Assembly: GCF_018598585.1 (NCBI RefSeq)
Contig: NZ_JAHESD010000050.1
Span: 1-46,174 of the forward strand
DNA length: 46,174 nt
Reading direction: 5' to 3'
From: Chryseosolibacter indicum
GTDB taxonomy: Bacteria; Bacteroidota; Bacteroidia; Cytophagales; Cyclobacteriaceae
Under the pieces are notes generated by a model. It made no database searches. It was not told the DNA's origin and was given only the letters and a program-made list of their open reading frames with translations. Position numbers and translations under genes: made by a program. Below, piece after piece: positions 15,627-42,188 of the stretch (its first letter is position 1; each line of letters opens with the position of its first letter).

Positions 15627-16523
15627 ATGATTGCCGGACAAATTCATACTTTATCAGGGGCGTCGCTTCTACTCGCCAAGTCCAAAGCATATTACGAATT
15701 GCTTAAATTTCGTCTTTCTTTTTTAGTTGCCTTTTCATGTGCTTTTGGGTACGTTCTAGCCTCAAGAACTGTCGAACCATTAGTATTAGTAATGTTATTT
15801 ATTGGGGGCTTTTTGTTATCCGGAGCGTCTTCAATAATCAATCAGATCATAGAAAGGGACCTTGATAAGCTGATGGGAAGAACCATGAGCCGTCCGTTAC
15901 CTTCTGGCCGCGTTTCGGTTAATGAAGCGCTTGCGTTATGCTTTGTTTGTTTTCTATTGGGAGTTATAATTCTTTCATTATTCACTAATACACTTACTAC
16001 TGTCCTATCAGTAGTTTCGATGATCTTATATGCTTTTGTTTACACGCCTCTTAAGCGAGTGGGTTCCATTGCTGTCTTTGTTGGAGCTATTCCAGGAGCG
16101 CTTCCTCCACTCTTAGGATGGATAGCATCTCGTGGAGCCATTACGCATGAAGCGTTAATTATATTTGGTATCCAATTTATTTGGCAATTCCCCCATTTTT
16201 GGGCAATAGCCTGGGTGGCGGATGAAGATTATAAAAAAGCTGGGTTTAAATTACTTCCGTCAGGTGGTGCGAAAGATCTTAACACTGCAATTCAAATCAT
16301 GATCTATACGATGTGTCTTATACCCTTAGGGTTATTACCAGCAGCTTTTGGAATAACAGGTATTACGTCGGCAATTGTTGCAACAGTTTGTGGTGTACTT
16401 TTCTTTGCCCAAACCTTTTCTTTAATGCGATCAGGAGATAGAAGATCGGCATTAAAGATAATGTTCGGATCTTTTTTGTACTTACCCGTTGTTCAAATAG
16501 CGTATTTGTTAGATAAACTTTGA
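15627..16523 (+). CDS. ctaB: Protohaem IX farnesyltransferase (haem O synthase)
   Basis: UbiA-family prenyltransferase of 298 residues with eight to nine helices. It attaches a farnesyl group to haem B to give haem O, the substrate of CtaA. The first Asp-rich motif appears as NQIIERDLDKLMGRT with the RPLPSGRVS continuation. The second region around DEDYKKAGFKLLPSGGA matches the family's second conserved loop. The start at ATG 15627 is one base after the ctaA stop. The spacing and order (ctaA-ctaB-subunit III) agree with an oxidase biogenesis block. Confidence 0.94.
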   Translation: MIAGQIHTLSGASLLLAKSKAYYELLKFRLSFLVAFSCAFGYVLASRTVEPLVLVMLFIGGFLLSGASSIINQIIERDLDKLMGRTMSRPLPSGRVSVNEALALCFVCFLLGVIILSLFTNTLTTVLSVVSMILYAFVYTPLKRVGSIAVFVGAIPGALPPLLGWIASRGAITHEALIIFGIQFIWQFPHFWAIAWVADEDYKKAGFKLLPSGGAKDLNTAIQIMIYTMCLIPLGLLPAAFGITGITSAIVATVCGVLFFAQTFSLMRSGDRRSALKIMFGSFLYLPVVQIAYLLDKL

Positions 16524-31462: not shown

Positions 31463-32464
31463 ATGACCAGGGCTTTTTACGTTATTATTGGAATAGTTAC
31501 CTTGCTGGCGTCTTCCTGCACCCAGCGAACGGTATGCCCTGCGTATCAAAGTGCCTTTATTTACGATAGAAATGAACTTAGAAAGAAGTTCAGCTATTTT
31601 CAGGAGGATTCAACACCTAAGGTACTTGTTGCAAGCAAAACAAAATATCTTGTTGCTGAGCCTACACCTTACAGGAAGAAATTAAGAAGTATTCAAACTG
31701 TTGAAGCTAAACGAATATTCGTTGCTGTTCCTGATTCCATCAGTGGTGTTGGAAAGGATTCTGTTGCTGCAGAGGATCTTGACAGAGCAGCCAGGTCAGT
31801 TATTGACACCATTATGGTAGTTGATGTGCCAGCAAAGGAAGCAATTGAGAAAAAAGCTGAAGATAGTGTTTATGTTATTTCTAAAGATCGTGAAGTAAGG
31901 CTATTAAAGTATAACATGCCCGACAGCCTGAAGTATGACGACATCTTAAAGAAATATGTTGCTGAAAAACCCAAGTATTACGTAGAAGAAGTAGGCTTTA
32001 ATACAGAGCAGGATAATTACATGTGGTACCTTCGCCATTCACTTGTTCTGCCAGACGTACGCCTTGCAAAATTACAGGCGGCCAATGCCAAGGCAGGAGA
32101 GGGTAAGAAAGCGCAGAGCGAGAAAAAAGGATTCTTTGGGTTCTTCAAGAATCTGTTTAAGAAGAAAGACAAGGCCGACATCGATTCAGCAGAACTTGAT
32201 ATACCAGGTGACGACGAGTTTGATTATATAGATACGACAGAAACGGTAGTACCTGTAAAACCTGTTCAGCGTAAGCAAAAACGTAATGAATTGAAAGCCG
32301 ACGAGCAGGATGAGAACGTTGAGCCCACAACGGAGGCAATTAACCCTGCGAAGCCTGATAAGAAGAAAAAGAAATCAAAGAAAGATAAGACTGAGAAAAC
32401 AACTACACCGCAGCAACCTCAGCAGGAGAAGAAGAAGGAAGAGGATGACGACGATGGCTTTTAA
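31463..32464 (+). CDS. Lipoprotein with a lysine-rich C-terminus
   Basis: The 333-residue protein has a lipobox (LLASSC, Cys19). The first half is moderately conserved-looking: a CPAYQSAFIYDRNELRKKFSYF block follows the anchor, and a QDNYMWYLRHSLVLPD block appears near residue 185. The second half is a low-complexity, Lys/Glu/Asp-rich tail, including KKGFFGFFKNLFKKKDK and a run of mixed lysine and acidic residues to the end. I do not recognise a characterised family. The tail suggests interaction with anionic partners or membranes. The stop codon overlaps that of the convergent SRAP-like gene by four bases. Confidence 0.7.
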   Translation: MTRAFYVIIGIVTLLASSCTQRTVCPAYQSAFIYDRNELRKKFSYFQEDSTPKVLVASKTKYLVAEPTPYRKKLRSIQTVEAKRIFVAVPDSISGVGKDSVAAEDLDRAARSVIDTIMVVDVPAKEAIEKKAEDSVYVISKDREVRLLKYNMPDSLKYDDILKKYVAEKPKYYVEEVGFNTEQDNYMWYLRHSLVLPDVRLAKLQAANAKAGEGKKAQSEKKGFFGFFKNLFKKKDKADIDSAELDIPGDDEFDYIDTTETVVPVKPVQRKQKRNELKADEQDENVEPTTEAINPAKPDKKKKKSKKDKTEKTTTPQQPQQEKKKEEDDDDGF

Positions 32465-33159
32465 TCAAACAAGGTAAGATTACCATGTTGGTCAGCCGGA
32501 GGTGTTGGAAGAATCAAAGAGGCAACATCAAGCGAAGTATTAGCAATACCAGGCGATACTGGATAATAATTTAAGTTAGATGCACTAATTGGCTTAAGCA
32601 GATCTACAATCTTCTCTTCCCCGGATGTTTTATCCAACCATATTTGCTCGCCGTTCCTGTTAAGGATAACAGGCATTCTTTCAGCGATGTTGTTTACAAT
32701 GTCGTCTGCTGGTAAAGTGATAATGGAAAAAGTCTGAATTTGATTGCCCTCAGTATCTTCAAACTCCTCCCATAAAGCAGCAATAGAAAAGGTCTCCCGA
32801 TCAGCCATCATAAAGTGATAGGGAATGCTTGTTTTTTTACCCACCTTCTTCCAGGCATAAAATCCATCAGCAGGAACAAGACACCTTGTTTTCATTAAGG
32901 CCCTTTTAAGAGCTGGGCGATCGTTAAAACTCTCTGTGCGTACGTTAATGATCTTTTCGCTCACCATTTTATTCTTGGACCACTCCGGTGAAATGCCCCA
33001 ATAAAAAAGAGAAACTCCTTCAGGAGCAGAGCTTGTAATAACAGGAAGAAGTTGTGTGGGAGCGGCATTATACCTTTCCTTATAAAAGTCCGGTACATCA
33101 ACAGAAAATCTTTCTGCTAAATCTGTACGTGATGCGGTAATGGTATAACGTTCAATCAT
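32461..33159 (-). CDS. SRAP-fold (YedK/HMCES) protein lacking catalytic residues
   Basis: The 232-residue protein has the fold of SOS response-associated peptidases, which capture abasic sites in single-stranded DNA through Cys2. Family blocks are clear: RYNAAPTQLLPVI, LFYWGISPEW, INVRTES (Asn72 and Arg74), CLVPADGFYAWKK and AERMPVIL. But all three active residues are replaced. Cys2 is Ile2 (MIERY instead of MCGRY), the Glu of GF[YF]EWKK is Ala102, and the His of the HDRMP block is Ala159. The DNA-protein crosslink and self-processing should therefore be impossible, while the DNA-binding surface remains. The start ATG is clear; no earlier Met-Cys is in frame nearby. The gene is convergent with the lipoprotein gene. 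Confidence 0.85.
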   Translation of the reverse strand: MIERYTITASRTDLAERFSVDVPDFYKERYNAAPTQLLPVITSSAPEGVSLFYWGISPEWSKNKMVSEKIINVRTESFNDRPALKRALMKTRCLVPADGFYAWKKVGKKTSIPYHFMMADRETFSIAALWEEFEDTEGNQIQTFSIITLPADDIVNNIAERMPVILNRNGEQIWLDKTSGEEKIVDLLKPISASNLNYYPVSPGIANTSLDVASLILPTPPADQHGNLTLFD

Positions 33160-33257: not shown

Positions 33258-34214
33258 TTACCTTTCATGTTGAATCCAATCCAATGCCCGTTGTTCAGAC
33301 CAATACAAACCGTTGCTATTTATTTGTGTGAAACCAACATGTCCGCCTCGCAGAGGCATCTCTAATTTTACGTATGGATGTTGTCTTAATAAATCAAAAG
33401 GAAAGCATTCCATGCTCAGGAACGGATCATTCTTTGTATTAACAATAAGTGTTGGTATTTGAATATTATCAAGGAAGAAAATGGAACTACATTTAGAATA
33501 GTAGTCGACGGCGTTTTTAAAGCCATGAAGAGGTGCTGTATAGGCGTCATCAAAATCGATTAACGTATTGATTGATCGAAGCTTCTGGGTGTCAAGACCG
33601 CTCATGAGATGAGCCTTGATAACAATCTTTTTCTTGAGTGAGACCACGAAACGTTGTGAGTAAATTTTGTTGGACGGTAGCGAAATCTTTGTGCAGCTAC
33701 TTTCAAGGTGCAGGGGTACAGAAAATACAGCTACCCTTTTAATTTGAGGGACTACTTGTCTTTCTCCAAGATACTTCAAGGTAATATTTCCACCTAGGCT
33801 AAAGCCAATAAGGAAAATTTCGTCGTATTGTTTTTTAGCCAACGCATGTTCAATAACGGTATGAAGGTCATCGGTAGCACCACTGTGGTAGAAACGTAGC
33901 TGCCTGTTCATTTCCTGGCTGCACCCCCGATAATTCCAAGCTAGGATATCAAAGCCATTTTTGTAAAATGCTTTTGCCATTCCTTTTATATATGCCCGGT
34001 AGCTATTACCCTCTAAGCCATGCTGAATTACAACCAGCTTTTTGGTGTTATTTGTCAACCAATCAAGATCAAGAAAATCATTGTCGGGCGTACTAATACG
34101 CTCTCTTCTAAAAGATGCAATAGAAACACGTCTGAAAAGCGCCGGATAAATGGTTTCCAGATGTGCATTGAAAAGAAAGAAAGGAGGGTTATAAGGATTT
34201 ATAAGATCTGCCAT
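33258..34214 (-). CDS. YheT-like alpha/beta hydrolase
   Basis: The 318-residue hydrolase of the YheT/ABHD1-3 family has HLETIYPALFRR near residue 18, a His-Gly-Leu-Glu-Gly oxyanion segment (QHGLEGNS), the FDILAWNYRGCS block and the nucleophile elbow GFSLGG. The aspartate is in the NTKNDPFL block and the histidine in RGGHVGF near the C-terminus, completing a triad. The family's substrates are probably lipid or ester compounds. A good -7 element (TACCTTTG) lies about 33 bases upstream on the minus strand. Confidence 0.87.
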   Translation of the reverse strand: MADLINPYNPPFFLFNAHLETIYPALFRRVSIASFRRERISTPDNDFLDLDWLTNNTKKLVVIQHGLEGNSYRAYIKGMAKAFYKNGFDILAWNYRGCSQEMNRQLRFYHSGATDDLHTVIEHALAKKQYDEIFLIGFSLGGNITLKYLGERQVVPQIKRVAVFSVPLHLESSCTKISLPSNKIYSQRFVVSLKKKIVIKAHLMSGLDTQKLRSINTLIDFDDAYTAPLHGFKNAVDYYSKCSSIFFLDNIQIPTLIVNTKNDPFLSMECFPFDLLRQHPYVKLEMPLRGGHVGFTQINSNGLYWSEQRALDWIQHER

Positions 34215-35756: not shown

Positions 35757-38700
35757 TTAGTGAACTATTGAAACTTTCTTCTGTAATAGGCCTCTGTTCG
35801 TTTCTATTTGTAACAAATATACCCCCGAAGTAAGATCTCTGGTCGACAAAGACTTTGATCTTTCACCTGTATTTACGTTACTACGCAATACAAGTTTCCC
35901 AAAGCTATCAAAAACATGTATTGAACTTTCTTTGTTTACAGTTTCCGACAGTTCGACATTAAGTACTTCACTAGCAGGAACCGGATAAACGTTTATTGTG
36001 CCTTCTAAAGCGATTTCTGATCCTGTTACTAATACAGGACGAGCAGGGTGATCAACCAGTTTTGCCTGAATAACTTCTTTGGAGCTTGCAGTTACCTTTT
36101 GAACAAAGACTACAATGGCACCTTCATTTGGATCAATAAGGCTTAATTTGTTCCATTCAATGGAAGGAACGGAATAAGACTCTCCTGGTTGAAACATTGC
36201 GGGCAGTTGAAGCCCTGCCGGTGAAGGTAATATATCTCTCGCCACATACTTGAACAGTTGATCGCCGTTGTTTCCTAAGAAGGCGGGGTTGTCGATTTTC
36301 TTTTCAACAATAACCGTAAACACGTTCAGGTCACTCGTATTTATTGAAGCACCTGCGGTGTTCGTAATTTTTGTATTGATTTTTACAACATCCCCGTCTT
36401 TAACAGGTACTATATCTATTCTCAACGGAGACGGCTCGAGCACACGGTTGTCGTACATCAAAGGAGCCCAGTTGGAATAGGGTCCGTTTTGGAAAGAACC
36501 ATCTATTCTTAATGAAGGAGAGCTTGTCAGTCCATAAAATGCGGCCCTTGCATTATTCATATTCTGGTTCGCTTTATTAAGTGGATCTTCTCCAGGAAAT
36601 GCAGTGTGATATTGTAAACCTATAATTTCAGAGGACACGTCTGTCAGTTGATTAAAGAACTCGTTTTGTGCACGTGCGTTTGCAACAGCCGACGAGTTAG
36701 TAAAGTTTTCAATGAGGATGGAACGACTTCTTTCCCCTACAACAATATTATCAAAAGCAAACCCTTCTCTGCTGCCAGTGTTGCTTGCAAAAGCAATCCG
36801 GAACTTCACATCAGATTTACCGATAAGTTCGTCTAGTTTATAGACAGCGTGCCTCCAGCTTTTGTACTTTCCTCCTGAAGCATCGCCTGTCCATCCAACA
36901 TCGGTTGACGATTGGTTGCCAGGGCTTGAAGTTATACCATTATGATCATACCAGTTAACACCTGTACTAATATCACCAAGTACTTTCCAGTTATTGCTAT
37001 CTTCAATATTACCTGTTTCGTTATACTGTAATACAGCGCCATCCAAACCTCTTGGTGTTTCAGACCAGATGTCCATGGCGATAACTGGCTTTTTTGCCTG
37101 ACTGAAGTCAAAGCATGGACTCAATACCCACGATTGCTCATTTGCATTGCTTTTCCCGTGGAGGTTTGTCTTCCATGCATTGCCATTACCCGTCGCAGAA
37201 GAATCACGGTTAATAATTACAGCAGAAGGTTTTCCAAATCCCCATGATGAATTCGTACCACCGCTAATCCAGCCTCCGCTTCCATTATCAAAAGTTTGAG
37301 CATAAGAATCATTTTCGGTGATAGGAGCAACCCGCGGAGTTATAAAAACAGGTTTTTCAACTGTATCACGACAGTTGTTAACAGATTGTACAATTAAACG
37401 TACAGTATCCATACCAATAGTGCCGTAAACCACTTCGGGAGAATCTGTATATTCGCCATGAAGCGTATTTATCGCCAATTGGTTTTTCTTATTAAAATTC
37501 CAATCGTAAGATGCAATAGAAACGCCGTTGGAGATTGTGGCATTAAAATAAGTTTCTGTTCCCAGGCATGCATCCCTCCAGGTAAAGTTTGCATTTGGTA
37601 TGGGATAGATATCAATTGGAGCAGTACCAGAAACCACACATCCATCACTTGTCATCATCCTGTAATTGACAGAATAATTTCTTACAGTCGGGAATTTGTG
37701 TTTGATATTTCTATAGGTCCCTTTAGTAGTACCTCCATGAGTATTATCAGGTATAAGGCCGTTACCAAAATCAAGGATACCGGTGTTGTCATCGAAATTC
37801 CATGAGTAGCTGGTTATGGTAGAGGTAGCTGAAGAAGGAATAATCTCTGAGTTATTATCAATGTCTACGAAAAAGCCATTGCAGGAAGTGCCTAGATCAA
37901 CCTGAGCATGGATACTTGGAAGAATGGTGATAGTAGCAGATGCCTGGTTTGAACAGGAAGTAGAAGCATCTGAATAAGTATAAGTAAGGTTGTAAGAGCT
38001 GCCGGGATTAAAGGTTGGACTATTTGGTAAAATATCTACAGTTCCAGAGCCAAAGTTACCTAACCCAGTAAATGCAGTGCCTCCCCATGTTCCTCCTGGA
38101 ATGGACTTAATTGATATAGGTCCATCTGACTTACATATTTCTGTTAAATCAATTTCAGGATTTGCTGTACTGATAGCAACAGCAGGAAGATCCTTGATTG
38201 TTATGGTTACTTTTCTGTTAGAACTCTGGCATCCGTCAATTGTTTGCGTTACAAACCTGTTAAAAGTAAATGGGCTGGAGGAAGAAAGCGCTAACTCAAC
38301 AGGTGAAGCATTCGTTGGTGTTGTTACAGTTATTTCATTTGCAGGGCTTTGTGTTTCGTCGTTATACCACTTAACAGTGGCTGAAGGCGATGAGGTAGTT
38401 ACCTGCAAAGGAGAAATTGCTGCATTTAAGCAATACTCAGCTGAATTGCTTAAGGGTGGTAAAGGAACTTGTTTAACTGTAATATTTATGGTGGATACAG
38501 GGCTTTCGCAGGAATTTATAATCTGCGAAACAAAACGTTGAAAAGTTGTTGTTGACGTGACGCTATTAGGGACTTCCAGCTGACCTGGTGTTGCCGTATT
38601 TGAAGTTGGAGAATAAACTACATCCCGGTCAGGTGTGTTTGCTGCCAGGGCGCCATACCACCTGTATGCACCACTTCCTCCTGCTACTGTAATTGGCAGA

Positions 38701-41700
38701 AATGCGTCATTCGAACAATAGGCAGGTATAGACGGCACTGCAGGAGGAGTAGGGTTACTATTAACAACAATATTAACTTGTGAAGCAGGACTCGTGCATC
38801 CATTAATTGTAGTTGTCATGTAAGATGTAAAAGTACCTGCACTATTTTCAGGAACGTTTAATTGAGAAAATTTTGGAGTGGCCGGGTTGGGTGATATTGG
38901 AATGGGAGATGTAAGCGAGTTATTGCTATACCATTGGATGGTCCCGCCAGATGTTACTTTAACTTCTCTATTGGAAATATCATCAGAAACGCAAAGCGGG
39001 GCAATAGCCTCAAAAGAAGGTGCTACAGGATTCTCGCTGATTGTTGTTCTTCCATAAACTGCTAAGTATTCAGTAGTTCCGTTTGTAACAAATACGTCAA
39101 GATAGTAGGACCCAGCCCCCACAGCAGATGGATTTAATCGAAATGTTTTAGGATTACTTCCAACAACTTCCTGGAACATATTTTGATAATTTGCAGGATC
39201 GGCGACATCAAGGTACCCATGCGGTCCATTACCAGCAAATCGATACAATCTTATTCGGATATAGGTTGTGGTAACAGGAATCGTTGCAGGATTATGGCTT
39301 AATACGCTACTCAATCCATCGGAAACACAATACTGGTTTTGTAAGTTGTTTACAATTGCTGAAGAGCTAAATACGTTTACAGCAATAGAGGTACTGTTAG
39401 AACAACCTGCATCACTCGTATGGGTATAAGTAATTGTAATTGGATTGTTAGCGGTGCCTGCAACCTGCGGGTTGAATTTGTATTTTCCATCAGGATATAA
39501 ACTAACACCCAAGCCTGAAAATACTCCTGTTCCATTATTGGGTATTACAGTTGCATTTAATTCATAAGGGTCCTGTGTATTATTAAATTGTGTCCTTACC
39601 ATCGCTTCTGTACCAGAGGGAGCGAAGCTAACAGCAGGGGTTGGATTAACTGTAAAATCAATTCTATTACTTTCTTTTGAACAGCCTCCTGTTACCTGTT
39701 GAACAACTACAGAAAATTTATCTCCGTTTGTAAAATCTGTTCCTGCTATTCTGTTAAGGTTTTGGTTACTACCGTTGTTAATTGAAGTTTGTAGTACATC
39801 CGAAGAATTGTACCTTCTGAAGGTATAGTTAAATGCAGCGGAAGGTGTCGCCCTTAACGTTATTGCATTTCCCGAACATAAGGCTGCAGAACCCGAAACT
39901 AATGTAATGTCTGCAGTGGGGGTAGGATTTACGGTTAAGGTAACTGGTGTTGCTGCGCTTCTGCAGACTCCAGGGGTTTGTGTAACATACCGAGTAATGG
40001 TAGCTGAGGATGATGTTACAAATCCAAGCAAAGTCATGTCCGCTGAAGTCGGATTAGCAGGGTTAGAAAGCCCTGTTATTTCTGTAGTAAGGTTAACATC
40101 AGAATACCACTTAACATTAATGTTGTTGGCTGTAACAATTGGACGAGGATTAATAACATCTCCCTGACAATATGTATGTGGTGTAAATGTAACTGCAGGA
40201 CTCGCCGCATTACTACCTGCGTTGATTGTAGCAAGGTTACCGGTCAATCCATTAATCGTTCCACTTCCTCCGGTCTTATTAATGTGGGCAGTTGAGTTTG
40301 ATGAACCATCATAAGTGACTTTAATTCCACTGATAATAATTGACTCTTTGTCATTATTGTTACCGTCCAAAGTATAAGTAATGGTAATTCGCGATGCATT
40401 AACAACTATTGAAAGTGTTTCAATATCATTATACATCGTACCTGGAGGTCCTGGGCTAACAGAGACACTTCCCTGACCGGGTACAAAACTGTAAGCCAAA
40501 TTATCAAGCTCAAAGATAATTGTTCCTTGATTTGCAATATCACTCTTTCCTACTTCCGCAATAGTAATGTTGGATAAGGTTATAGAAGATCCCTGGCAGA
40601 CTGATGCGGTATTCGCTGGTGTCACTGCTACCCCTGTCGAGGGAGTTTCCGAGGCAGTTAAAATAGTTGCACTTGTTAAGTAATTGTAAGTTTGGCTGTT
40701 GACGCCATTCCAATTAAAAGGAATAATAGCATAATTGTACTGCGTTCCTGCGGTTAAACCGGTATGGACATATGAAACATCAGAAGGAGAGGTTACGGTA
40801 GTAATTACGGTAGTTCCGCTTGGTAACGTAAATGAACCTGGAGCTACACCATCATCTATTCCGGTAACAGTGGGATCTGCGCCATCACTTCTTCTTAAAA
40901 TAATATATCCATCTGCGTTTGTAATTGTATTGGCAGCGGTAAAAAACAGTGTTATCTGCGTTGAACTTGTTGCTACGGCATCGAAGTCTGAAGGGTGGGC
41001 TGACGGTTCGAGTGCATAAGTAAAGCTATTTGCTGAGGGAGGAGAATCAGTTTTGTAATTTATTGAAGAGCCTGATCCATTATAGGAATATATTTGAAAA
41101 TTGTAATTGGCTTGAGGATCAAGTCCCGTCCAATCATAGTGGTCAGGGCCCGCAATATGTGCGACGTTAATTACACCCCTGAAATTAGCATCGGTAAAAT
41201 CATTGTCATCAGCGAGCGTATTTCCATCCGTTATGGTGTGAAATGTCCCTGAGGGATTTTTCTTAGCTACAATAATATAATTAGATGGAAGATTTGTACC
41301 CGTTGCGCCTGTCCAGGTTAATCGTATGGTGGTTGCGTTAATGGCAGATGCTGCAAAAGCAGTAGGTTGGTTGGAAGGTTGTACGGCTAATGTTGTAGCA
41401 GATATAGTTGGAACACTTGCTGTATTATAATTAATAGTGGCGGATGATCCGTTATAAGCATAAACTGCAAAATCGTATGAAGTGTTGGGATCCAGCCCAG
41501 TCCAATCATATTGGTTAACCCCTGCGGTATGTACAACATTGTGTGCACCATTTAAATCTGCGCCGGTAAAATCAATATCATTGGCTACCGCAACACCATC
41601 TACCACAGAAGGATAAGAACCTCCGGAATTTTTCTTTGCCACAATCAGGTAGTTTGATGGGGTTACAGCACCCACCGCCCCATTCCATGTAAGTCGTATT

Positions 41701-42188
41701 GAACTCTCTCCAAGTACTGATACATTTAAACCTGAAGGTTGATTAGTAGGTTCGTCAGCAAAGGTAGTAGCAGATGCGGAAAGGGGAGATGAGGTTTTAT
41801 AATTAGAACTTGCTCCTGCGCCCGTATACGGATAGATTTGAAATTCATACGCAGTTTGGTTGTCTAATCCCGTCCAATCGTATTCATTTAGACCACTATC
41901 ATGCGTAACATTGATAGCACCATTTTTGTTACTGTCTGAAAAATCGTTGTCATCTGCTACAGCAGTTCCATCCGTTACAGTTTGAAAAACACCACCTGAA
42001 GATTTCCTTGCAACGATCAGGTAGTTTGCAGGGATGGTAGCACCCGTTGCGCCAGTCCATGACAGACGAATTGAAGAAGAACTTGTAGCCGTTGCTGTAA
42101 AGCCTGTCGGATGGTTGGTAGGTTCCTGTGCGAATCCTAAAGAAGTTATAAGTACCAGACTTAGAATGTGGGGTAATAAACGTATCAT
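35757..42188 (-). CDS. Giant multidomain secreted protein with T9SS C-terminal sorting domain
   Basis: The product is 2143 residues. A signal peptide (1-21) is followed by four FN3-like units: residues about 22-145, 146-265, 266-390 and 391-510. The first three share the nearly identical blocks YLIVA[RK]K, ADDNDF and YDWTGLD. The middle (about 510-1420) is a string of Ig-like/HYR-type repeats with CxGxxxxL patterns and ...TVNPTP linkers. Two PKD-like domains (about 1430-1520 and 1560-1620, both with [SY]-x-WNF) come next, then a lectin-like jelly-roll segment (about 1626-1815). An Omp28-like thioredoxin-fold domain (about 1823-2050) lacks the usual CxxC. Last is a T9SS type A sorting domain from about 2063 (NVYPVPASEVLNVEL, ending VSIVH). 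The protein should reach the cell surface or medium as an adhesin or carbohydrate-binding protein. It is last in the minus-strand cluster. Confidence 0.85.
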   Translation of the reverse strand: MIRLLPHILSLVLITSLGFAQEPTNHPTGFTATATSSSSIRLSWTGATGATIPANYLIVARKSSGGVFQTVTDGTAVADDNDFSDSNKNGAINVTHDSGLNEYDWTGLDNQTAYEFQIYPYTGAGASSNYKTSSPLSASATTFADEPTNQPSGLNVSVLGESSIRLTWNGAVGAVTPSNYLIVAKKNSGGSYPSVVDGVAVANDIDFTGADLNGAHNVVHTAGVNQYDWTGLDPNTSYDFAVYAYNGSSATINYNTASVPTISATTLAVQPSNQPTAFAASAINATTIRLTWTGATGTNLPSNYIIVAKKNPSGTFHTITDGNTLADDNDFTDANFRGVINVAHIAGPDHYDWTGLDPQANYNFQIYSYNGSGSSINYKTDSPPSANSFTYALEPSAHPSDFDAVATSSTQITLFFTAANTITNADGYIILRRSDGADPTVTGIDDGVAPGSFTLPSGTTVITTVTSPSDVSYVHTGLTAGTQYNYAIIPFNWNGVNSQTYNYLTSATILTASETPSTGVAVTPANTASVCQGSSITLSNITIAEVGKSDIANQGTIIFELDNLAYSFVPGQGSVSVSPGPPGTMYNDIETLSIVVNASRITITYTLDGNNNDKESIIISGIKVTYDGSSNSTAHINKTGGSGTINGLTGNLATINAGSNAASPAVTFTPHTYCQGDVINPRPIVTANNINVKWYSDVNLTTEITGLSNPANPTSADMTLLGFVTSSSATITRYVTQTPGVCRSAATPVTLTVNPTPTADITLVSGSAALCSGNAITLRATPSAAFNYTFRRYNSSDVLQTSINNGSNQNLNRIAGTDFTNGDKFSVVVQQVTGGCSKESNRIDFTVNPTPAVSFAPSGTEAMVRTQFNNTQDPYELNATVIPNNGTGVFSGLGVSLYPDGKYKFNPQVAGTANNPITITYTHTSDAGCSNSTSIAVNVFSSSAIVNNLQNQYCVSDGLSSVLSHNPATIPVTTTYIRIRLYRFAGNGPHGYLDVADPANYQNMFQEVVGSNPKTFRLNPSAVGAGSYYLDVFVTNGTTEYLAVYGRTTISENPVAPSFEAIAPLCVSDDISNREVKVTSGGTIQWYSNNSLTSPIPISPNPATPKFSQLNVPENSAGTFTSYMTTTINGCTSPASQVNIVVNSNPTPPAVPSIPAYCSNDAFLPITVAGGSGAYRWYGALAANTPDRDVVYSPTSNTATPGQLEVPNSVTSTTTFQRFVSQIINSCESPVSTINITVKQVPLPPLSNSAEYCLNAAISPLQVTTSSPSATVKWYNDETQSPANEITVTTPTNASPVELALSSSSPFTFNRFVTQTIDGCQSSNRKVTITIKDLPAVAISTANPEIDLTEICKSDGPISIKSIPGGTWGGTAFTGLGNFGSGTVDILPNSPTFNPGSSYNLTYTYSDASTSCSNQASATITILPSIHAQVDLGTSCNGFFVDIDNNSEIIPSSATSTITSYSWNFDDNTGILDFGNGLIPDNTHGGTTKGTYRNIKHKFPTVRNYSVNYRMMTSDGCVVSGTAPIDIYPIPNANFTWRDACLGTETYFNATISNGVSIASYDWNFNKKNQLAINTLHGEYTDSPEVVYGTIGMDTVRLIVQSVNNCRDTVEKPVFITPRVAPITENDSYAQTFDNGSGGWISGGTNSSWGFGKPSAVIINRDSSATGNGNAWKTNLHGKSNANEQSWVLSPCFDFSQAKKPVIAMDIWSETPRGLDGAVLQYNETGNIEDSNNWKVLGDISTGVNWYDHNGITSSPGNQSSTDVGWTGDASGGKYKSWRHAVYKLDELIGKSDVKFRIAFASNTGSREGFAFDNIVVGERSRSILIENFTNSSAVANARAQNEFFNQLTDVSSEIIGLQYHTAFPGEDPLNKANQNMNNARAAFYGLTSSPSLRIDGSFQNGPYSNWAPLMYDNRVLEPSPLRIDIVPVKDGDVVKINTKITNTAGASINTSDLNVFTVIVEKKIDNPAFLGNNGDQLFKYVARDILPSPAGLQLPAMFQPGESYSVPSIEWNKLSLIDPNEGAIVVFVQKVTASSKEVIQAKLVDHPARPVLVTGSEIALEGTINVYPVPASEVLNVELSETVNKESSIHVFDSFGKLVLRSNVNTGERSKSLSTRDLTSGVYLLQIETNRGLLQKKVSIVH

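Follow-up and report, generated by a model that had tools for sequence, protein, structure and literature searches.

The DNA analysed here (the window, 46,174 nucleotides of a Chryseosolibacter indicum contig) encodes a protein that is a member of the SRAP superfamily (PF02586) by descent and fold. Its gene, at 32461–33159 on the minus strand, starts with ATG, contains no internal stop and specifies 232 residues, of which residues 1–207 match the Pfam SRAP domain (E 2e-54, 184.8 bits against a cut-off of 27.1). The gene, its key codons and its upstream neighbour are placed as follows.

32461..33159, minus strand: SRAP-fold protein of 232 residues with the crosslinking residues replaced (open reading frame, Pfam PF02586, model and fold search)
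33154..33156, minus strand: codon 2, ATT, Ile replacing Cys2 (sequence and alignment column states)
32944..32946, minus strand: codon 72, Asn kept (YedK Asn75; PDB sequence alignment and column states)
32854..32856, minus strand: codon 102, Ala replacing Glu105, in GFYAWKK (PDB sequence alignment and column states)
32683..32685, minus strand: codon 159, Ala replacing His160, in AERMP (PDB sequence alignment and column states)
32677..32679, minus strand: codon 161, Arg of RMP, kept (column states and count of basic positions)
32467..32493, minus strand: tail DQHGNLTLF, residues 223–231, resembling a clamp-binding motif, with the chain end of low confidence in the model (alignment, pattern search, model)
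33258..34214, minus strand: alpha/beta hydrolase (Abhydrolase_1), upstream neighbour of the SRAP gene (Pfam and locus comparison)

Residues 72, 102 and 159 were placed on YedK Asn75, Glu105 and His160 by a PDB sequence alignment that included the YedK, HMCES and BT_1218 chains. That alignment begins at residue 14, and the Cys2 column was placed through alignment with MCGRY proteins of the same family. The reading frame and the alignments agree with the first-pass annotation, which had listed Ile2, Ala102 and Ala159 in place of Cys2, Glu and His, and they add that the active-site Asn is kept. Of the residues that mark an AP-site crosslinking SRAP, the window protein has the counterpart of Asn75 (N72) and lacks those of Cys2, Glu105 and His160. 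A wrong start is ruled out as the source of this pattern, since the in-frame stretch upstream, 11 residues (IIFKSLYHPVL) back to the previous stop, holds no Met-Cys and no ATG, GTG or TTG codon.

Two other window genes were noted in passing. The gene for a 333-residue protein, at 31463–32464 on the plus strand, is convergent with the SRAP gene and overlaps it by 4 bases; the protein begins with a hydrophobic stretch that has a Cys close to its end, finishes rich in Lys and Glu, and matched nothing in Pfam. A 2143-residue protein encoded at 35757–42188 on the minus strand contains fibronectin III and Ig-like repeats and a match to a Por secretion tail.

SRAP proteins have so far been explained by one chemistry, the adduct of Cys2 with abasic DNA, and the founding paper of the family describes the cysteine as absolutely conserved (PMC3765255). 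In YedK, Cys2 and then Glu105 are the most important residues for crosslinking, E105A and H160A slow the reaction, E105D slows it only modestly, and N75A has no more than a modest effect at an internal AP site (PMC9436759). Because Asn75 matters little at an internal AP site, its retention in the window protein says little. With Cys2 and Glu gone, both thiazolidine and Schiff-base chemistry would be switched off, and since Cys, Glu and His are all missing, no adduct is expected from this protein. Its residues support the earlier suggestion of a pseudoenzyme, as far as AP-site crosslinking is concerned.

It is quite improbable that an altered covalent chemistry persists, such as a Schiff base or lyase reaction through the N-terminal amine. 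Under the N-terminal processing rule, Met is expected to stay in front of Ile2, and the His position varies widely within the lineage; both points tell against such a chemistry. YedK C2A does still form the Schiff base and shows lyase activity, which speaks for it, but this activity is reduced by E105Q (PMC9436759), and the Glu is lost in the window protein. Our search of the literature, which covered titles and abstract openings and had most subscription papers outside its scope, turned up no report on SRAPs without these residues and none on a clamp-binding tail in a SRAP.

The body of the protein is predicted to retain the SRAP fold. An AlphaFold2 model, built from the window protein and 31 relatives, reached a pLDDT of 89.3 and a pTM of 0.87, with residues 62–64 and 230–232 below 50. 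The best Foldseek matches were BT_1218 of Bacteroides thetaiotaomicron (TM 0.81), YedK with DNA (0.77–0.79) and HMCES (0.79–0.80), at an rmsd of about 3.2–3.6. BT_1218 (PDB 2F20) is the best solved relative by both sequence and fold, although it is only 26–27% identical in the Foldseek alignment. With E. coli YedK and human HMCES the window protein shares the fold (TM 0.77–0.80, DNA-bound entries), the Asn and RMP Arg positions and the length, whereas it lacks equivalents of Cys2, Glu105 and His160 and carries a C-terminal DQxGN(L/Y)(T/S)LF tail.

Basic residues that could contact DNA are partly preserved. Thirteen positions (4, 17, 62, 64, 69, 81, 86, 92, 104, 105, 108, 109 and 161) are basic in the window protein and in at least 90% of the family sequences with Ile2, and position 115 is Lys or Arg in 93% of those rows and His in the window protein. 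The window protein as a whole is acidic (net charge -6, pI 5.1), and the median net charge is -2 for Ile2 rows and +1 for intact rows. Position 74 (R74, YedK Arg77) holds Lys or Arg in 73% of Ile2 rows and in 31% of other degenerate rows. Given the drop in charge and the variability at position 74, DNA binding may be weakened.

A similarity search of genome contigs, biased in that two of its six query peptide patterns derive from GFYAWKK and the tail, recovered 35 relatives at 45–65% identity. Their record titles name Ohtaekwangia, Chryseolinea, Pseudochryseolinea and Chryseotalea as well as MAGs labelled Cyclobacteriaceae, Flammeovirgaceae, Fulvivirgaceae, Cytophagales or just Bacteroidetes. 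At residue 2, 32 of them carry Ile and one each Val, Phe and Cys; the Glu position holds Ala in 33 and Cys in two, and the His is retained in three. Sequencing error is ruled out because the same losses recur across these relatives (34/35 without Cys, 35/35 without Glu, 32/35 without His). A Pfam search of 39 genomes, the source genome included, is independent of the GFYAWKK and tail patterns; it found SRAP in 31 genomes, with intact and degenerate forms both occurring within one family.

We assembled a state alignment of 159 distinct SRAP sequences, 133 with the tail and 26 without, in which identical sequences were counted once and from which the fragments L147, L178, L079, L087 and L089 had been removed. 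Some starts were set automatically at a motif, and a few of the residue-2 states may therefore be wrong. Of the 133 sequences with the tail, Cys, Glu and His are all present in 43 and all missing from 67, and 23 are intermediate (Cys only, 10; Glu and His, 4; Glu only, 4; His only, 3; Cys and Glu, 2), and the Asn corresponding to YedK Asn75 is kept in 118. Cys2 is missing from 78 of the 133, where residue 2 is instead Ile (45), Pro (8), Ser (6), Gly (5), Phe (5), Leu (4), Val (3), Tyr (1) or Thr (1). The Glu position of the 45 Ile2 rows holds Ala in 37, Gly in three, Cys in two, Val in two and Ser in one. Asp replaces Glu in seven of the 80 non-Glu rows; because YedK E105D slows only modestly, these rows, although counted as lost, may not be dead and may keep activity.

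The first-pass annotation had raised the possibility of a whole lineage rather than a single case, which both the 35 relatives and the 133-sequence set confirm. Its suggestion that all three residues were lost at once does not hold. Within the genus of the source organism, L014 has Cys102 with the His kept and L017 has Gly102 with Gln159, and these intermediate states, along with the five intermediate classes in the family, mean that the three residues were not lost in one step.

Among the rows from the Pfam search, 26 of 51 are non-canonical, and 20 of these bear the tail. The six non-canonical rows without it are L072, whose missing Cys among the 26 no-tail rows is an artefact of a wrongly assigned start, L081 and L085, which are longer and have only the Glu changed, and L073, L084 and L088. 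The last three are SRAP-like proteins with degenerate active sites from genomes of the same family; tail-less degenerate examples read MKRFG..., MRFRYG... and MCNRF without Glu or His.

Phylogenetic analyses establish that the residue losses happened in parallel rather than once. In trees built without the three trait columns and without the tail, the minimum number of changes on a quick tree of 137 rows is 10 for Cys, 10 for Glu and 11 for His. A careful tree of 79 rows, with three long rows left out, requires 8, 10 and 9 changes, and 6 for the distinction between intact and not intact. These counts carry no direction, and the polarity of loss rests on four intact outgroup rows. Trees that force all the non-Cys rows into a single clade are rejected (p-AU 7e-5), and so are those that do this with all the non-Glu rows (p-AU 1e-50). 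One clear example is provided by L150–L152, which keep Cys, have lost Glu and His and nest in the quick tree inside an otherwise intact MCGRY clade; L150, the one of these checked in the careful tree, again falls inside that clade.

Constraint acts on the degenerate genes too, though a little less tightly than on the intact ones. dS was usable for 21 of the 39 close, non-overlapping pairs, and with several dS values above 1 the resulting ratios are rough: dN/dS is 0.030–0.097 in 11 degenerate pairs, 0.010–0.042 in nine intact pairs and 0.052 in one mixed pair. Purifying selection on a conserved body, as proposed at first reading, is thereby upheld, and so is the accompanying claim that the gene is not decaying, given that length, tail and synteny are conserved as well. 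The repeated loss of active-site residues is what a decaying relic or pseudogene would also show, but the low dN/dS of the degenerate pairs (0.03–0.10) rules out that account, to which we assign next to no probability. The family members that have lost catalytic residues while constraint persists are probably best described, from sequence, as pseudoenzymes under selection.

The genomic setting points to loss in place. In 82 of 96 loci (the window, the 35 relatives and 60 others) the gene immediately upstream of the SRAP gene is a relative of the alpha/beta hydrolase; the count is not of independent loci because some are one place drawn from two collections. The 82 include 12 of the 15 loci with intact copies. 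Because intact and degenerate genes stand behind the same hydrolase, the residues were lost in place, and the degenerate genes do not form a separate paralogue. The closest comparison is with the tailed MCGRY-type SRAPs of the same family (for example, L120, L133 and L162), which share the length, the hydrolase in front in those intact loci and the tail, where most of them have Tyr in place of Leu, but differ by having Cys, Glu and His. No conserved DNA-repair neighbourhood was seen in the 3–4 kb flanks of the 96 loci, where the hydrolase is the constant neighbour. At greater distances, a DNA_pol3_alpha match (15695–16405) lies about 6.6 kb from the intact tail-type SRAP L003 (23010–23630) on G004:C132, and on G006:C53 a tail-type SRAP and an IMS match are about 14 kb apart.

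The first-pass annotation had also cast the protein as a possible competitor or adaptor, which we took to mean a role alongside a second, active SRAP of the cell. Raw counts across 97 genomes, for which second-copy states were hand-coded from search tables, favour such a relationship: of the 58 genomes that carry a degenerate copy, 37 have another SRAP of any state, and of the 39 that carry an intact one, 5 do (Fisher 4e-7). Kinship accounts for much of the material, however, leaving three independent pairs on supported branches, or eight on all branches, which are too few for a test; strong as the raw association is, we rejected the idea of a degenerate paralogue beside an active twin. Twenty-one of the 58 degenerate-copy genomes, some of them drafts, yielded no second SRAP, and a Pfam search of the source draft (5.8 Mb, 183 contigs, 99.4% complete) found none either. 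The competitor role fails in the source genome as assembled, and a competitor or adaptor function strikes us as improbable. That a second copy freed the residues to be lost is possible for some lineages, and the source genome lends it no support.

The best clue to function is a feature absent from the first reading, the C-terminal tail. This DQxGN(L/Y)(T/S)LF segment lies beyond the Pfam match (1–207) and beyond the end of the YedK match. All 35 relatives end in DQ(F/H/Y)GN(L/Y)(T/S/R)LF plus at most one residue, with Arg for T/S in two. When the window protein is aligned with 31 of the 35 relatives, with no filter applied for the tail, its 9-mer tail segment ranks third of 224 stretches by conservation, and only two stretches on the DGFYAWKK strand are more conserved, narrowly so. 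It ranks first in sets selected by the tail, partly by choice, and its invariance among tail-bearing rows (90/90) arises by construction, since Q, G, N, L and F are set in the pattern that selected those rows. In the model, pLDDT averages 74 over residues 221–230 and is below 50 at 230–232, and a highly conserved segment without a confident fold of its own looks like a docking motif.

The tail is a property of the family and is shared by intact and degenerate copies. Four of the intact MCGRY-type proteins in the Pfam search end in DQFGNYTLFG and one in DQFGNYTLFN. A degenerate DNA pattern for the tail matched 232 of 295 family genomes, intact and degenerate copies taken together, against two for a reversed control. 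Outside the family, the exact pattern was found in none of 137 genomes from other families of the order and none of 145 drawn from the class, where the reversed pattern gave one match; L071 and L086, from two genomes of other families, have variants of the tail. Among 90 loci fetched on the tail, some of them genes already in other sets, 89 have an open reading frame above 90 residues that ends in it and is of SRAP length except in the fragments L147 and L178, and the 90th (L090), in which a contig end cuts the frame, reads like the end of a SRAP. Genome G264 has two matches of an NLRLF-tailed form, L147 and L148, the former with an open frame of only 125 residues.

The tail resembles the motif by which bacterial proteins bind the beta sliding clamp. 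The reported consensus is QL[S/D]LF or, more generally, QxxLF, and in E. coli clamp binding is weakened or lost when motif positions 1, 4 and 5 are changed (PMC12309361). Positions 4 and 5 are Leu-Phe in the window protein (L230 F231) and in 35/35 relatives, and the segment occupies the last residues of the chain, in keeping with the flexible or terminal placement of clamp motifs. Position 1 is Asn rather than Gln (Asn227 in the window protein, Asn in 35/35 relatives), and this substitution is the main weakness of the clamp reading. For comparison, human HMCES binds PCNA through a C-terminal motif.

The source genome itself contains proteins with clamp motifs of the standard form. Its best IMS polymerase match, which we read as Pol IV, ends in DQLSLF, and the counterpart in G001 ends in SSQLSLF; when the best IMS match of each of ten genomes is considered, the remaining eight finish instead with six residues resembling QLxLx(F/L), and the Pol III alpha of the source genome carries QASLF. 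The tail and the C-terminal QLSLF of the two IMS polymerases are alike in having xx(S/T)LF at the C-terminus or no more than one residue from it. They differ in that the window tail has Asn for Gln and sits on a SRAP rather than a polymerase body.

Taking these observations together, we lean towards regarding the window protein as a clamp-docked, non-covalent SRAP that acts at the replication fork and makes no covalent link to abasic DNA. The tail would dock on the beta sliding clamp, as the Y-family polymerase of the source genome presumably does via its terminal QLSLF, and the body would still recognise single-stranded or junction DNA through the kept Arg, Asn and Lys positions. Docked in this way, the protein could cover lesions or primer junctions reversibly or tune the access of translesion polymerases, and a reversible cover would leave no DNA–protein adduct in need of removal. 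For the family at large we propose, tentatively, that SRAP might be a clamp-docked fork protein whose covalent chemistry is optional and was dropped in parallel while docking was kept, the indispensable service being the non-covalent one.

Alternatively, tail and body might bind a Y-family polymerase or another mutasome subunit rather than the clamp, making the protein a regulatory subunit of a translesion complex. We consider this unlikely, if deserving of attention. SRAP-like proteins have been proposed as subunits or partners linked to UmuC-like polymerases (PMC12926913), and the source genome has three IMS-domain and three DNA_pol3_alpha matches. In related work, srap genes are described as somewhat enriched near polB2 (PMC11791011). 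The UmuC partners are likewise SRAP-related and have a regulatory role proposed, but the window SRAP has no polymerase neighbour. More broadly, an IMS-type gene occurs in the flanks (3–4 kb) of only three of the 96 loci, no polymerase gene is a conserved neighbour, and the tail resembles a motif found at the end of the IMS polymerase itself, all of which argue against a polymerase partner.

HMCES has crosslink-independent roles. That a gene common in the family has given up the adduct chemistry repeatedly, and is still strongly selected, suggests that SRAP has another task, one that involves no adduct. The degenerate SRAPs are natural separation-of-function proteins for finding that task, and the clamp-like tail names a concrete candidate partner.

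Clamp-like ends are found in other SRAPs as well. We searched the last 12 residues of other open reading frames in the studied loci with the expression [QN]x[STDGNEQ][LIM]F, which was written after the tails were known and admits Asn. Among 586 such frames of at least 200 residues, 11 matched: eight SRAPs that lack the family tail and end in, for instance, QLSLF, QGSLF or QLDLF, three IMS polymerases, one of whose matches looks like chance, and nothing else. A class-wide Pfam sample gave three matches, one of them weak, among 26 SRAPs without the family tail. Clamp-like C-termini recur in some SRAPs of the class, of which the family tail looks like one fixed variant, with Asn for Gln. L019, L020, L067, L076, L081, L085, L004 and L026 are SRAPs of this kind, with clamp-like ends (QLSLF, QLDLF, QLGLF, QGSLF, QGDLF) in place of the family tail; fork tethering may be more general among such proteins.
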